From an uncultured Ruminococcus sp. (GTDB taxonomy: Bacteria > Bacillota > Clostridia > Oscillospirales > Ruminococcaceae), in the NCBI GenBank assembly GCA_934463425.1, contig CAKSJP010000011.1:1-64000 (forward strand): a stretch of DNA of 64,000 nucleotides, given 5' to 3'. The translations under genes were made by a program, and so were the position numbers. Of this stretch, positions 11,898 to 33,735 are shown one piece after another (position 1 is the first letter of the stretch; the number at the start of each line of letters is the position of its first letter). The notes beneath the pieces are model-generated. The model was not told the origin of the DNA. It saw only the letters and a program-made list of their open reading frames with translations, and searched no databases.

Positions 11898-11997
11898 AAT
11901 AATGAGCCGGTTGAGAAGAGGGGATTTGCCAGATTCCCTCAAATGCAATCACGCAGCCGGACATACAATCGAAATCAAAAATTGGAGGTATTTACCA

Positions 11998-14634
11998 ATG
12001 GCAAACAAATGGGTTTATATGTTTAGCGAAGGCGACATGACCATGCGTAATCTCCTCGGCGGTAAGGGTGCAAACCTGGCTGAGATGACCAGCATCGGTC
12101 TGCCGGTACCGCAGGGCTTCACCATCACAACTGAGGCCTGCACACAGTACTATGAGGACGGCCGCAAGATCAGTGACGAGATCATGGATCAGGTTATGGA
12201 CGGCGTCAAGAAGATGGAAGAGATCAACGGCAAGAAGTTCGGCGATCTGGAGAACCCGCTGCTGGTTTCCGTTCGTTCCGGTGCGCGTGCATCCATGCCG
12301 GGTATGATGGACACCATCCTGAACTTGGGTCTGAACGACGACGTTGTAGCTGCTATGATCAAGGGCAACCCGGATCCGGCTTTCGAGCGCTTCGTATATG
12401 ACTCCTACAGACGTTTCATCCAGATGTTCTCCGACGTTGTTATGGAAGTCGGCAAGAAGTACTTTGAGCAGCTCATCGACAAGATGAAGGAAGAAAAGGG
12501 CGTACAGTTCGACGTAGAGCTGACCGCTGCTGATCTGAAGACTCTGGCTGAACAGTTCAAGGCAGAATACAAGAATCAGCTGGGCACTGACTTCCCGTCT
12601 GATCCGGTTGAGCAGCTGAAGCTGGCAATCGAGGCTGTATTCCGCAGCTGGGACAACCCGCGTGCAAACGTATACCGTCGCGACAACGATATCCCGTACA
12701 GCTGGGGTACCGCAGTTAACGTAATGCCGATGGTATTCGGTAACCTGAACAACGAGTCTGGTACTGGTGTAGCATTCACCCGTGACCCGGCTACCGGTGA
12801 AAAGAAGCTGATGGGTGAATTCCTGATCAACGCACAGGGCGAAGACGTTGTTGCCGGCGTTCGTACTCCGATGCCGATTGCACAGATGGAACAGGAATTC
12901 CCGGATGCATACAACGAATTCATCAAGGTTTGCGAGACTCTGGAAAACCACTATCACGACATGCAGGATATGGAATTCACTGTTGAGAACAAGAAGCTGT
13001 ACATGCTGCAGTGCCGTAACGGTAAGAGAACCGCACAGGCTGCGCTGCAGATCGCTTGTGACCTGGTAGATGAAGGACATAAGACAGAAGAAGAAGCAGT
13101 TCTGATGATCGACCCGAGAAACCTGGACACCCTGCTGCACCCGCAGTTCGATGCCAAGGCTCTGAAGGCTGCTACTCCGATGGGCAAGGGCCTGGGCGCT
13201 TCTCCTGGCGCTGCATGCGGTAAGGTTGTATTTACTGCTGACGATGCAGAAGCTTGGAACGCAAAGGGCGAAAAGGTTATCCTGGTTCGTCTGGAAACCT
13301 CTCCGGAAGACATCACCGGCATGAAGGCATCTCAGGGTATCCTGACTGTCCGCGGCGGTATGACTTCTCACGCTGCCGTTGTTGCTCGTGGTATGGGTAC
13401 CTGCTGTGTATCCGGCTGCGGCGAGATCAAGATGGACGAAGAGAACAAGAAGTTCGAGCTGGCTGGAAAGACCTTCCACGAGGGCGACTACATCTCCATC
13501 GACGGTTCTACCGGTAACATCTATGACGGCATCATCCCGACTGTTGACGCTTCTATCGCTGGCACATTCGGCCGCGTAATGGGCTGGGCAGACAAGTACA
13601 GAACTCTGAAGGTTCGTACCAACGCTGATACTCCGGCTGATGCAAAGAAGGCTCGCGAGCTGGGCGCTGAAGGTATCGGTCTGTGCCGTACCGAGCACAT
13701 GTTCTTCGAGGCTGACAGAATCGCAGCATTCCGTGAAATGATCTGCTCTGACACTGTAGAAGAGAGAAAGGCTGCTCTGGCTAAGATCGAGCCGATGCAG
13801 CAGGGCGACTTTGAGGCTCTGTACGAAGCTCTGGAAGGCAACCCGGTTACCATCCGTTTCCTGGATCCGCCGCTCCACGAATTCGTTCCGACCGAAGAAG
13901 AAGATATCAAGAAGCTGGCTGATGCTCAGGGCAAGACTGTAGATCAGATCAAGGCTATCATCGCTTCTCTGCACGAGTTCAACCCGATGATGGGTCACCG
14001 TGGCTGCCGTCTGGCTGTTACATATCCGGAAATCGCTGAGATGCAGACCAAGGCAATCATCAAGGCTGCAATCAACGTGAAGAAGAATCACCCGGATTGG
14101 ACCGTTAAGCCGGAGATCATGATCCCGCTGATCGGCGATGTCAAGGAACTGAAGTTCGTAAAGAAGGTTGTTGTAGAAACTGCTGACGCTGAGATCGCTG
14201 CAGCTGGTTCTGACCTGGCTTACGAAGTTGGTACCATGATCGAGATCCCGAGAGCTGCTCTGACTGCTGACGATATCGCGAAGGAAGCTGACTTCTTCTG
14301 CTTCGGTACAAATGACCTGACTCAGATGACCTATGGCTTCTCCCGTGACGACGCAGGCAAGTTCCTGGGCGCTTACTATGACGCTAAGATCTTCGAGAGC
14401 GATCCGTTTGCGAAGCTGGATCAGACCGGCGTTGGCAAGCTGATGAAGATGGCTATCGACCTGGGCAAGCCGGTTAACAGCAAGCTGCACTGCGGTATCT
14501 GCGGTGAGCACGGCGGCGACCCGACATCTGTTGAGTTCTGCCACGAGATCGGTCTGGACTATGTTTCCTGCTCTCCGTTCCGTGTGCCGATCGCAAGACT
14601 GGCTGCTGCACAGGCTGCAATCAAGAACAAGTAA
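11998..14634 (+). CDS. ppdK: Pyruvate, phosphate dikinase
   Basis: The enzyme interconverts pyruvate + ATP + Pi and PEP + AMP + PPi, and serves PPi-linked glycolysis or PEP synthesis in anaerobes. The start at MANKWVYMFSEG was chosen for its upstream TTGGAGG and family match. The 878-residue product is full length. It has the ATP-grasp domain (GGKGANLAEM, RSGARASMPGMMDTILNLG), the phosphohistidine domain with the catalytic His in GGMTSHAAVVARGMG near residue 460, and the TIM-barrel PEP-binding domain (GLCRTEHMFF, MMGHRGCRL, CGICGEHGGDP with the catalytic Cys). Codon choice is strongly biased (many GCT, GTT, GGT), unlike its neighbours, as expected for a very highly expressed gene. A terminator follows at 14754-14796. 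Confidence 0.98.
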   Translation: MANKWVYMFSEGDMTMRNLLGGKGANLAEMTSIGLPVPQGFTITTEACTQYYEDGRKISDEIMDQVMDGVKKMEEINGKKFGDLENPLLVSVRSGARASMPGMMDTILNLGLNDDVVAAMIKGNPDPAFERFVYDSYRRFIQMFSDVVMEVGKKYFEQLIDKMKEEKGVQFDVELTAADLKTLAEQFKAEYKNQLGTDFPSDPVEQLKLAIEAVFRSWDNPRANVYRRDNDIPYSWGTAVNVMPMVFGNLNNESGTGVAFTRDPATGEKKLMGEFLINAQGEDVVAGVRTPMPIAQMEQEFPDAYNEFIKVCETLENHYHDMQDMEFTVENKKLYMLQCRNGKRTAQAALQIACDLVDEGHKTEEEAVLMIDPRNLDTLLHPQFDAKALKAATPMGKGLGASPGAACGKVVFTADDAEAWNAKGEKVILVRLETSPEDITGMKASQGILTVRGGMTSHAAVVARGMGTCCVSGCGEIKMDEENKKFELAGKTFHEGDYISIDGSTGNIYDGIIPTVDASIAGTFGRVMGWADKYRTLKVRTNADTPADAKKARELGAEGIGLCRTEHMFFEADRIAAFREMICSDTVEERKAALAKIEPMQQGDFEALYEALEGNPVTIRFLDPPLHEFVPTEEEDIKKLADAQGKTVDQIKAIIASLHEFNPMMGHRGCRLAVTYPEIAEMQTKAIIKAAINVKKNHPDWTVKPEIMIPLIGDVKELKFVKKVVVETADAEIAAAGSDLAYEVGTMIEIPRAALTADDIAKEADFFCFGTNDLTQMTYGFSRDDAGKFLGAYYDAKIFESDPFAKLDQTGVGKLMKMAIDLGKPVNSKLHCGICGEHGGDPTSVEFCHEIGLDYVSCSPFRVPIARLAAAQAAIKNK

Positions 14635-14818: not shown

Positions 14819-14977
14819 AAAAAAAGACCCGGATCCAAAGAACCGGGCAGAGAAATAAAATATAGAACAAAAGAAAGGAGACAACAAAACGAGTGATAAA
14901 ATAAACGGAGCACGGATAAAAACAAAATAGGAGGGTTTTTATCTCACATATAACTCCATAGCAGTAGTTTTATCACC
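14819..14977 (-). ncRNA. Candidate small RNA with an anti-Shine-Dalgarno loop (about 159 nt)
   Basis: A near-perfect promoter (14984-15012) would start a minus-strand transcript at about 14977. It would end at a GC hairpin CCCGG/CCGGG followed by seven T (14819-14825). Between them no ORF or ribosome site exists. The RNA can fold as a nested rod: GTGATAAAA (14976-14968) with TTTTATCAC (14901-14893), GGAG with CTCC, and GATAAAAAC (14943-14935) with GTTTTTATC (14923-14915). The 11-base apical loop reads CCTCCTATTTT, directly complementary to Shine-Dalgarno sequences. A second CTCCTTTC lies in the unpaired stretch before the terminator. C/U-rich anti-SD loops are typical of Firmicutes trans-acting sRNAs. 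A divergent 6S-type RNA is a weaker alternative. The remaining bases of this 614-base gap (to 15248) hold nothing else I recognise. Confidence 0.65.
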
Positions 14978-14983
14978 TTCCCT

Positions 14984-15012
14984 ATTATACACAATTCCAG
15001 AGATTCCGTCAA
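14984..15012 (-). promoter_or_regulatory. Promoter of the candidate small RNA
   Basis: Minus strand TTGACG (15012-15007), exactly 17 bases, TATAAT (14989-14984) with TG at the extended position. No protein-coding gene follows on this strand for kilobases, so the promoter is unexplained unless it drives an RNA. Confidence 0.75.
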
Positions 15013-15248
15013 GGGAAAATCTCCAGAAAATACAGTATCCTTTTGCTTTTTGTAGAACTGCACAAAAAATGTGTTTTGCATTTTGCAATTATTATGTAAA
15101 AAAACGTCGTGTTTGGATGAAATTTTGTCGAATTTCCACGAAAATCGCGCCTGTATAGATTCCCAAAAAAATGGGCATACTACCTCTGTGCAGCCGTAGG
15201 AAACGGACAAGTATTTTTACAAATGCTGCAGGAAAAGAGGTGTATGTT

Positions 15249-31529: not shown

Positions 31530-31678
31530 CCATTTTGTTACCAACATTTCATTTTGGATATTCTAAATTTTGGGATATCCAAGCCTGAGAAATTGTGCAG
31601 AATGAGCGTATCAGCCCTTGCTTTTTTGTGCAGTGCGCCGAAAATTCGACACTTTTTTCAAACCAAGCGCCAAATTGA

Positions 31679-31713: not shown

Positions 31714-31872
31714 TGGATTCATGACAAATCGATTACAATCGGCAAAGGTTTTTTGTCGAATTGATACGAACGCAAAGAACAGCGGCAGCAAAGGAATCTC
31801 CTGAAGGCCGCTTCCAAGGACATGCCCGTTTCCGAACCAGGATGTCCCCGGACACGAAAGGACGTGAAACCA
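31714..31872 (+). promoter_or_regulatory. Structured 159-nt leader of the C39-like gene
   Basis: The leader can form at least three stem-loops: GACAA/TTGTC (about 31724-31758), AGCGGC/GCCGCT (about 31778-31810, with an inner AGGA/TCCT), and GACAT/ATGTC (about 31817-31846), the last followed by GTCC/GGAC before AAAGGACG. I could not match it to the cyclic di-GMP or cyclic di-AMP riboswitch consensus, though such switches often control wall proteins of this kind. Regulatory function is an inference. The stretch 31530-31678 before the promoter holds nothing else recognised. Confidence 0.4.
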
Positions 31873-33735
31873 ATGGCGCAACCAATGCGCAAACTATTCC
31901 TTGCGGCAGCAAGCGGACTGCTGGCATCGCTTCTGATCGGTGCTGTGTCTGTCTCCGCAGAGGAAACCAATGTGCAGGAAAGCTCCCTGCGTCTAAACCG
32001 ATTTATTGTCACAGACAGCGGCAACCGTGTATTGACCGGAAGCTGTGACGCAGACCAGATCACACAGACCGGCTGGTATGTTTCAGATGACGACAGCCTT
32101 TATTATTATTACAGCGACGGCAGCTGTGCACAGGAAGAGAGCACCCTGGAGGACGGCTTCACTTATTTATTTGCCTCTGACGGCGCGCTCCGCACCGGAT
32201 GGCAGACCGTAAACGGAAAGCGGTATTATTACGATGCCGAGGTAGGAAAGCCGGTTTTCGGCTGGCTGAACTATCATGACTCCCTGTACTATATCGATCA
32301 GAATATCGGCAAGTTGACAGGCGTTCAGACCATCGGCAGCACACCGTATACCTTCGATGACTACGGCTGTGTTCAGACCGGATGGATCTCTTATGAGGAT
32401 GGTTCGCTGTATCTCTACAATGAGGACGCATCCGTTTATACCGGATGGCAGACCACCGATGCCGGCACTTATTACTTCACTGCCGACAAGGGCGCTGTTT
32501 CCGGTGTCAACACCATCGACGGAAAGCTCTATGACTTCTCCGCGGACAAGCTGCTCCAGACCGGATGGATCACCACCGATGCCGGCACTATGTGGGCTGA
32601 CGCAGACGGCGTCATTGCCACAGGCATGACCGTCATCGACGGAAAGACCTATTGCTTTACCAGCCAGGGCATCCTGCGAAGCGGCACTTTCACAGAAAAC
32701 GGTGCCATTTACCTCGCCGGAGAGGACGGGGTTCTGCGAACCGGACTTCAGGCAGTGGGCAGCGGATTCAGCTACTTCGATCCGGAAACCGGCGCAATGC
32801 AGACCGGATGGGTCACCGTCGGAAGCACACGCTTCTATTTCGACCCCAGCAACGGCATGCTCCGCACAGGCTGGATGGACACAGAGGAAGGTACACTGTA
32901 TCTCACAGAGCGGGGTGTCCTCACCGGTGTACAGAACATTGACGGCGTTGTCTATGGCTTCGATCCCACCACAGGCGTTCTGCTGAAGGAATGGCAGACC
33001 CTGAACGGAAAGCTGTATTATTTCAGTTCCACAGACGGCAGCGCACTTTCCGGCTGGGTAAACCGGGATGACAGCAAGATCTATCTGACAGAATCCGGCG
33101 CAGCAGCTTCGGGACTGACAGAGATCGCCGACAGCACCTATTATTTTGATCCCACAACATTTGCCATGCAGACCGGATGGATCACCATCGGCGATACATC
33201 CCGCTACTTCGATCCGGAAACCGGCATCCTCAAGGAAACCGGACACGAACCGGTTCAGCTGAATGTGGTAGATTACAAGCAGTTTGACTCCAAATGGAGC
33301 AATAAGGTCATCAACTATTCCACCATCGGAAAGGTCGGCTGTGTTACCACGGCACTGGCAATGAAGTATTCCTACCAGACCGGCACAAACACCACACCGG
33401 ACAAGATGGTGTCCAAGCTCACCTACAGCAGCGACAACCTGATCTGGTCTTCCTGCGAAAAGCTGGGCTATCAGGTGGATACCCTGAGCTGCAGCATTTC
33501 TCAGAGCATTATGCAGCAGATCTACGATCAGCTGCTGAACAACACACCGGTAGTAGTCGGTGCAAAGAAATCCAACGGCAGCCAGCACTATGTCCTGGTT
33601 ACCGGATATACCGGCTCGAAGGGCACATCCTTCTCTGCCGAAAACTTTATCATCAACGATCCGGGTTCCAGCAAGCGCACAAAGCTCAGCGAATACCTGG
33701 CGCTGTTCCCCACACTCTACAAACTCATCTATTAG
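31873..33735 (+). CDS. Secreted protein with cell-wall-binding repeats and C39-like peptidase domain
   Basis: The start was set at ATG 31873 (MAQPMRKLFLAAASG), preceded by AAAGGACG, because it begins a signal peptide (cleavage near VSA-EETN). The product is 620 residues. Residues 60-470 are about 18-20 imperfect repeats of the choline/glucan-binding type (pattern TGWQTVNGKRYYYD, TGWITIGDTSRYFDPETG). The C-terminus (about 475-620) is a C39-like cysteine peptidase domain, with the Cys in IGKVGCVTTALAMKY, the His in NGSQHYVLVTGYTG and the Asp in FIINDPGSSKRT. It likely acts at the cell surface on peptides or peptidoglycan-linked substrates. It is a single-gene unit with its own strong promoter and structured leader. 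Confidence 0.85.
   Translation: MAQPMRKLFLAAASGLLASLLIGAVSVSAEETNVQESSLRLNRFIVTDSGNRVLTGSCDADQITQTGWYVSDDDSLYYYYSDGSCAQEESTLEDGFTYLFASDGALRTGWQTVNGKRYYYDAEVGKPVFGWLNYHDSLYYIDQNIGKLTGVQTIGSTPYTFDDYGCVQTGWISYEDGSLYLYNEDASVYTGWQTTDAGTYYFTADKGAVSGVNTIDGKLYDFSADKLLQTGWITTDAGTMWADADGVIATGMTVIDGKTYCFTSQGILRSGTFTENGAIYLAGEDGVLRTGLQAVGSGFSYFDPETGAMQTGWVTVGSTRFYFDPSNGMLRTGWMDTEEGTLYLTERGVLTGVQNIDGVVYGFDPTTGVLLKEWQTLNGKLYYFSSTDGSALSGWVNRDDSKIYLTESGAAASGLTEIADSTYYFDPTTFAMQTGWITIGDTSRYFDPETGILKETGHEPVQLNVVDYKQFDSKWSNKVINYSTIGKVGCVTTALAMKYSYQTGTNTTPDKMVSKLTYSSDNLIWSSCEKLGYQVDTLSCSISQSIMQQIYDQLLNNTPVVVGAKKSNGSQHYVLVTGYTGSKGTSFSAENFIINDPGSSKRTKLSEYLALFPTLYKLIY

Follow-up and report, generated by a model that had tools for sequence, protein, structure and literature searches.

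A small RNA gene between ppdK and a DUF378 gene

The window, i.e. the whole stretch of 64,000 nucleotides analyzed here, carries a gene for a small RNA (sRNA) of a new family. The family has an almost invariant core resembling the anti-Shine-Dalgarno (anti-SD) sequence and a likely link to Hfq, and its core is shared with viral contigs. The gene lies on the minus strand from approximately position 14977, as placed from the promoter, to 14819, the end of the terminator. It is situated between ppdK (11992-14634), which adjoins it on the downstream side, and a DUF378 gene (PF04070; 15249-15470). The locus seems to be a genuine gene for a small regulatory RNA, presumably expressed, that occurs in gut bacteria of the Ruminococcus type and is absent from catalogues. 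A search of the whole window against Rfam 15 yielded only a tRNA, and at E values up to 5 the locus gave only matches below the cut-off. Searches of the open-access literature, including by the letters of the core, returned no report of this sRNA and nothing on trans-acting RNAs in the Ruminococcaceae, a family of major fibre degraders in gut and rumen.

The original prediction of a new sRNA gene with an exposed anti-SD sequence is borne out by a locus that is conserved, covaries and has no Rfam match. The near-consensus promoter TTGACG-17-TATAAT is present at 14984..15012 (minus strand, as all elements of the gene given below), agrees with the consensus in 11 of 12 letters and is kept in the homologues. 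Two promoter-like sites were seen in 2 kb compared to 1.9 expected from shuffled sequences; the promoter alone is therefore not significant and its weight comes from its conservation in the homologues. The GC hairpin followed by seven T was also found by sequence and fold (14848..14819), as an intrinsic terminator that a general pattern scan did not list. The predicted fold of the 159-nt RNA has an energy of -33.1 kcal/mol (z = -4.2), and none of 200 shuffled sequences was equally stable. Within this fold the 5' arm (14968..14977) and the 3' arm (14892..14901) form an outer stem with the apical loop CCCTCCTA at 14928..14935. The 3' arm is directly followed by an unpaired 28-nt core, CGTTTTGTTGTCTCCTTTCTTTTGTTCT (14864..14891).

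Conservation and distribution of the core

Relatives were fetched via the neighbouring gene, and the closest was Ruminococcus callidus ATCC 27760 (92% identity of that protein). In three of these relatives (L003, L005 and L006) the RNA was found at the same position beside DUF378. The promoter, the terminator and the unpaired segment after the first hairpin were kept there, the apical loop was not. The taxonomic family of the R. callidus genome, which we take to be the Ruminococcaceae, was then sampled with 297 genomes. When up to 3 mismatches were allowed, a 23-nt pattern was present in 87 of them, a number that includes a few chance matches (L024, L025 and L053), compared to 4 matches of the reversed control.

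Homologues were found among these related genomes, and their conservation extends beyond the promoter. Out of the 28 positions of the core, 27 were invariant in all 86 homologues (window included) and the remaining one was kept in 85 of 86. Since 19 of the 28 letters lie inside the search pattern, for which at most 3 mismatches were allowed, conservation at these positions is partly selected. The last nine letters lie outside the pattern and were invariant as well, with the exception of L081, which was left out of the set. Further rows were dropped as chance matches (L022 and L060), for not passing the 28-nt filter (L024, L025 and L053), as duplicates (L014-L016), for a cut contig (L058) or for lack of a terminator according to the script (L100). 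A script detected a hairpin before a T-run at 87 of 88 loci; some few of these hairpins are weak. In the bacterial copy L081 (genome G214) the core is truncated after CTCCTTTCTTT, and the terminator follows immediately.

When the search was widened to the order (22 of 394 genomes), a second subtype, TTTTTAGTTGTC, came to light, whose 5' stem is different. Accordingly, the core common to both subtypes comprises 22 nt, i.e. the last 22 nt of the 28-nt core (14885-14864). With up to 2 mismatches this 22-nt core was found in 94 of the 297 family genomes, 91 of them exact. A second, inexact match was present in five genomes, and the sRNA usually occurs as one copy per genome. Two of these five second matches are gene start regions with one mismatch each to the complement of the 22-nt core: a GntR-type regulator in G255 (L293, position ~1444) and an ABC-transporter-like gene, named by eye, in G109 (L267, position ~1500). 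Class-wide, the 22-nt core was detected in 5 of 391 genomes, namely four known carriers and G894, where the match looks like chance.

Diverged members were found in G134 and G016, with little kept beyond TCTCCTTTCTTTTT. They were weak matches (E 0.013 and 0.026, respectively) of a covariance model with stricter filters (R2; 80 genomes) and were recovered independently by the pattern search; an earlier model, R1, contained no base pairs and was not used. Matches in G024 (E 0.0028, better than both diverged members) and G075 as well as two second R2 matches were judged to be chance, with no promoter-core arrangement seen.

The DUF378 gene was found near the sRNA at 41 of 88 loci (40 of 87 without the window), some of which have little flanking sequence. 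It is mostly located upstream on the same strand, whereas it is divergent in the window and in R. callidus. The exact 23-nt string of the apical loop was absent from all genome contigs searched, and a 17-nt string of the loop matched two viral contigs.

Covariation of the outer stem

The three nested stems of the original prediction were seen in the fold as described, but only the outermost was found conserved. This outer stem of the sRNA covaries, while the inner hairpin is replaced by unrelated sequence in other homologues. The base of the stem is fixed in position: its 5' side starts six nt after the -10 box and its 3' side ends immediately before the core. With the arms placed by these distances alone, 281 of 336 cells paired (42 distinct arm pairs) compared to 245 after permutation of whole arms (sd 5.5, maximum 264, 2000 permutations). 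Pair 1 was composed of G-C in 16 cases, A-T in 12 and G-T in 10.

In an alignment of 57 sequences 88.6% of the cells paired, compared to 75.1% in shuffles (0 of 500 reached this value), and 71 cells showed a double change compared to 13 in shuffles, counts that refer to sequences and not to independent events. Slid registers reached at most 52% pairing. Among five measures of covariation, the number of pair types was not above the shuffles (108 of 500). Eleven rows of this alignment belong to subtype 2. It was made without sequences over 125 nt, without identical ones and also without the window, L050, L066, L076, L089 and L109, for which a stricter script gave no terminator.

In the RNA of the window both CCTCCTA in the apical loop and the second element, CTCCTTTC, were predicted to be unpaired, as proposed originally. 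CCTCCT precedes the core in 3 of 86 homologues only (the window, R. callidus L003 and L017) and other sequence takes the place of the inner hairpin elsewhere, so that the apical loop is not supported as the working part and was rejected as the seed. The second element fared better: CTCCTTTC is predicted to be exposed (mean unpaired probability 0.90) and belongs to the almost invariant 28 nt that separate the hairpin from the terminator. The anti-SD sequence is thereby predicted to be open between two stem-loops. Across 103 predicted RNAs the mean probability was 0.857, with 80 above 0.8 and 23 at 0.8 or below.

The anti-SD core and a proposed mode of action

Nine letters of the core, CTCCTTTCT (14872..14880), are identical to part of the anti-SD tail of 16S rRNA and would pair with AGAAAGGAG. 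This tail was recovered from 4 of the 12 genomes searched, where it reads GGATCACCTCCTTTCTA. Own promoter, intrinsic terminator, conserved structure and an exposed seed complementary to the SD sequence, structural features of a trans-acting anti-SD sRNA, are all present.

We consider it probable that the gene encodes a trans-acting, probably Hfq-assisted sRNA which blocks ribosome-binding sites by pairing with their SD sequence, and regard this as the most likely reading. The sRNA would be transcribed from its own promoter under the control of a class-I-like activator and end at its own terminator. The RNA would be capped by a 5' hairpin whose sequence is free to vary, with the almost invariant single-stranded core left open. 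The core copies a part of the 16S tail (CUCCUUUCU) and adds flanks; it would thereby be able to base-pair with (AACAAAA)GAAAGGAGA(CAA)-type ribosome-binding sites and deny access to the 30S subunit, with Hfq as a probable partner. Translation would thus be blocked in trans. The sRNA is a widely kept and mostly single-copy candidate with a sharp prediction, namely that genes carrying GAAAGGAG sites are controlled by it in an Hfq-dependent manner, and with a possible regulon site. The near-invariance over such a length exceeds the need of plain anti-SD pairing and counts against this reading.

Hfq was present in 91 of 94 carriers, as expected for an Hfq-dependent sRNA, compared to 65 of the 203 other genomes (297 family genomes; Fisher p ~2e-29, uncorrected for kinship). 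The 65 genomes with Hfq that lack the 22-nt core include the two with diverged members. The three carriers without an Hfq match (G240, G258 and G283) may be incomplete genomes. Two genomes were corrected by hand for these counts, G214 being added and G075 taken out, and the Hfq-negative status of 121 genomes follows from the tally.

The search for targets among start regions revealed no single conserved target gene in the carriers, but a weak signal of the flanks. When the real flanks of the core were compared with shuffled ones at the start regions of three carriers (400-kb samples), 0, 3 and 6 of 150 shuffles were as good (z 2.3, 2.0 and 1.7). A non-carrier gave a less clear result (16 of 150, z 1.2), and a smaller flank excess of the same sign was also seen in control stretches at -100 to -56. 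These comparisons are based on an alignment score used in place of duplex energy, a choice that favours the anti-SD reading. Duplex energies showed no gain from the real flanks (mean -15.0 compared to -14.8 for shuffled ones, sd 0.5) and were judged unreliable, as large loops inflate them and values for absent duplexes spoilt the internal control.

In 25 carriers a start-region pattern gave 32 extra sites and its reversed control 16, an excess that could arise with any SD-like pattern, and the sites examined precede different genes. A two-part complementary pattern was not above its control (46 extra sites compared to 56 for the reversed pattern in 80 carriers), and its start regions are accordingly leads only. 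In 26 of 27 inspected extra sites of this kind the start codon was positioned as in a start region. These leads comprise mreB-like genes (G124 and G200, weaker in G123) and ftsK-like genes (G237 and G256), both named by eye, a gene for a DUF4015 protein (G123, with a likely orthologue in G199) and a GntR regulator (G255).

The core in viral contigs

The exact 22-nt core was present in 10 viral contigs and 19 nt of it in 30 (L373-L402), compared to 1 for the reversed control. The sequences 5' of the core formed twenty clusters among the 29 contigs long enough to judge. Several clusters share a GCAGGCGG hairpin and some contigs are near-duplicates, which reduces the number of truly unrelated scaffolds. 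The occurrence of the same core in other 5' contexts suggests that the core is the functional unit. In L388 and L389 a promoter is placed such that the core would form the very 5' end of the transcript, followed by a hairpin and T6; in L388 this promoter is TTGACA-17-TATTAT, immediately before the core. The anti-SD sequence was predicted to be open above 0.8 in 15 of 28 viral copies (mean 0.71).

A tRNA follows 43-74 nt downstream of the core in 22 of the 30 contigs: 18 tRNA-Met (12 distinct sequences), 2 tRNA-Ser and 2 tRNA-Leu. None of the 18 tRNA-Met has a Watson-Crick pair at 1:72 (16 G1:A72 and 2 C1:A72). As the missing 1:72 pair is a mark of initiator tRNAs, these viral tRNA-Met appear initiator-like. 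Among the at least 79 tRNA loci listed, the core was found at the 4 known ones and at two more (L458 with 2 mismatches and L474 with 4 mismatches), and most were without it. Terminase genes were confirmed in both contigs tested (L379 and L384), and L379 also carries a portal gene. A search of seven viral loci against Rfam returned tRNAs only. The whole sRNA gene had no match in phage and plasmid records, a 31-nt core gave only weak, chance-level matches in phage records, and a piece of L379 matched other phages only via its tRNA.

From these sequences the best reading appears to be that phages have adopted the sRNA core. We tentatively suggest, as a possibility of rather low probability, that the core is a mobile RNA module steering translation initiation. 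Bacteria would use it as an Hfq-linked sRNA, and phages would have acquired it, on varied scaffolds, as part of a cassette that is close to the packaging genes and also contains an initiator-like tRNA-Met. One viral transcript would then carry both an imitation of the anti-SD sequence and a start tRNA and could shift initiation from host to phage messages. The viral copies would provide a natural experiment in which bacterium and virus share a short RNA core, often beside initiator-like tRNAs, and the influence of phages on start-site choice would become testable through it.

Alternative explanations

The main rival, which we hold to be unlikely, is that the core serves chiefly as a protein- or ribosome-binding module for Hfq, S1, cold-shock or KH proteins. 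It would titrate a protein or act on the ribosome, and anti-SD pairing would be secondary. Near-invariance over 22-28 nt with U-rich flanks would suit such a module, as would the use of the core on different scaffolds in hosts and viral contigs, the co-occurrence with Hfq and the lack of enrichment of the two-part target pattern. The identity of 9 nt to the 16S tail argues for pairing instead, as does the weakly better fit that the flanks show at start regions. An improbable explanation of the viral copies alone is that they are merely attP integration sites with the host gene as attB and hence say nothing on RNA function. Blocks of identity of the size of the core are usual in att sites, and an integrase gene is located ~0.8 kb from the core in L388 and L389, which are near-identical here. 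Against this stand the downstream tRNA in 22 of 30 contigs, the terminase genes beside the core in both contigs tested, the many viral copies with hairpins of their own and L388 itself, where promoter and hairpin with T6 enclose the core.

It is very improbable that, instead of a separate sRNA, the locus represents a 5' leader or an attenuator belonging to the next gene. Within 700 nt downstream, the longest frame shares the strand of the RNA at 65 of 103 loci, but lies on the opposite strand at 32 of 103. The downstream ppdK is convergent in the window, L006 and L079, and the hairpin before a T-run found at nearly all loci would end the transcript. That a protein-coding frame on either strand causes the conservation is hardly credible; such a frame was looked for and not supported. 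Read on the opposite strand, the core looks like an ideal start region and is followed by ATG or GTG in 87 of 87 subtype-1 loci, and among frames on the RNA strand that touch the core (median 52 codons) a single one reaches 300 codons. Frames on the opposite strand, however, have a median of 10 codons (maximum 76), a start codon is missing there in subtype 2, third positions do not vary within the core, and promoter and terminator point the other way. An sRNA that acts on ribosome-binding sites remains our preferred reading.

Comparison with known RNAs

The most similar RNAs are the csRNAs of the CiaRH regulon in Streptococcus, which are reported to have an unpaired anti-SD sequence between two stem-loops, strong promoters under control of the regulator and a conserved stretch (PMC3091779). 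The sRNA described here shares with the csRNAs the two stem-loops with a predicted unpaired anti-SD sequence in between, a strong promoter with a putative regulator site, the origin in Firmicutes and a conserved stretch of its own. The csRNA nonamer [A/C]UCCUAAA[A/C] was present in 0 of 86 homologues. While the csRNAs are diverse, the core of the present sRNA is near-invariant, usually occurs once per genome and is also found in viral contigs. Promoters of csRNAs are marked by the CiaR direct repeat; this repeat was present in 0 of 87 upstream regions of the sRNA, also when one mismatch was allowed.

LhrC of Listeria and RsaE/RoxS of Firmicutes likewise use unpaired C/U-rich motifs that pair with SD sites. 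They differ from the present sRNA in their UCCC-type motifs and in their structures, and the locus has no Rfam match. GcvB of enterobacteria, which is Hfq-associated and has many targets, also contains a long, highly conserved single-stranded segment, but this is G/U-rich instead of C/U-rich and belongs to another lineage and context. Similar to known phage tRNA genes, the tRNAs of the viral loci are phage-borne, including the initiator-like tRNA-Met. The opening parts of abstracts on phage tRNAs mention no anti-SD-like RNA directly upstream.

An activator-like site upstream of the promoter

An activator-like DNA site, TTTGTGCAGTTCTACAAA, is located at 15049..15066 (minus strand) with its centre 45 bp upstream of the -35 hexamer. 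The site TTTGTGCAA-N4-ACNAA was found with at least 10 of 13 letters in 64 of 85 distinct upstream regions, compared to ~2 expected from mononucleotide shuffles. As these sequences also served to derive the consensus by eye, the match count, but not the spacing, is partly circular. The centres lie 43-46 bp from the -35 box in 40 cases, 33-34 bp in 20 and elsewhere in 4. Two positions one DNA turn apart are as expected of an activator bound to one face of the helix, and the site would be that of the putative activator proposed above.

In the sampled DNA 16 such sites precede promoter-like sequences, two of them being the sRNA itself; the distance is 23, 33, 35, 44 or 45 bp for 11 of the 16 and a different one for the remaining 5. 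The window contains a second activator-like site at 31625..31642 (plus strand), with its centre 45 bp upstream of the perfect promoter TTGACA-17-TATAAT. The gene that follows (31822-33735) encodes cell-wall-binding repeats and a C39-like peptidase and is a possible regulon mate. A site in G119 precedes a gene for a SpoIID-like protein, and other sites precede unrelated genes. A cell-envelope regulon under the putative activator is only a lead. A mostly intergenic repeat around TCTGTGCAATCTGACGAA, which resembles the activator site, was seen in G123, G119 and, as a variant, G138, at positions 690 (L233), 2519 (L237), 8611 (L318), 15823 (L320), 15494 and 15673 (L327) and 9769 (L371).
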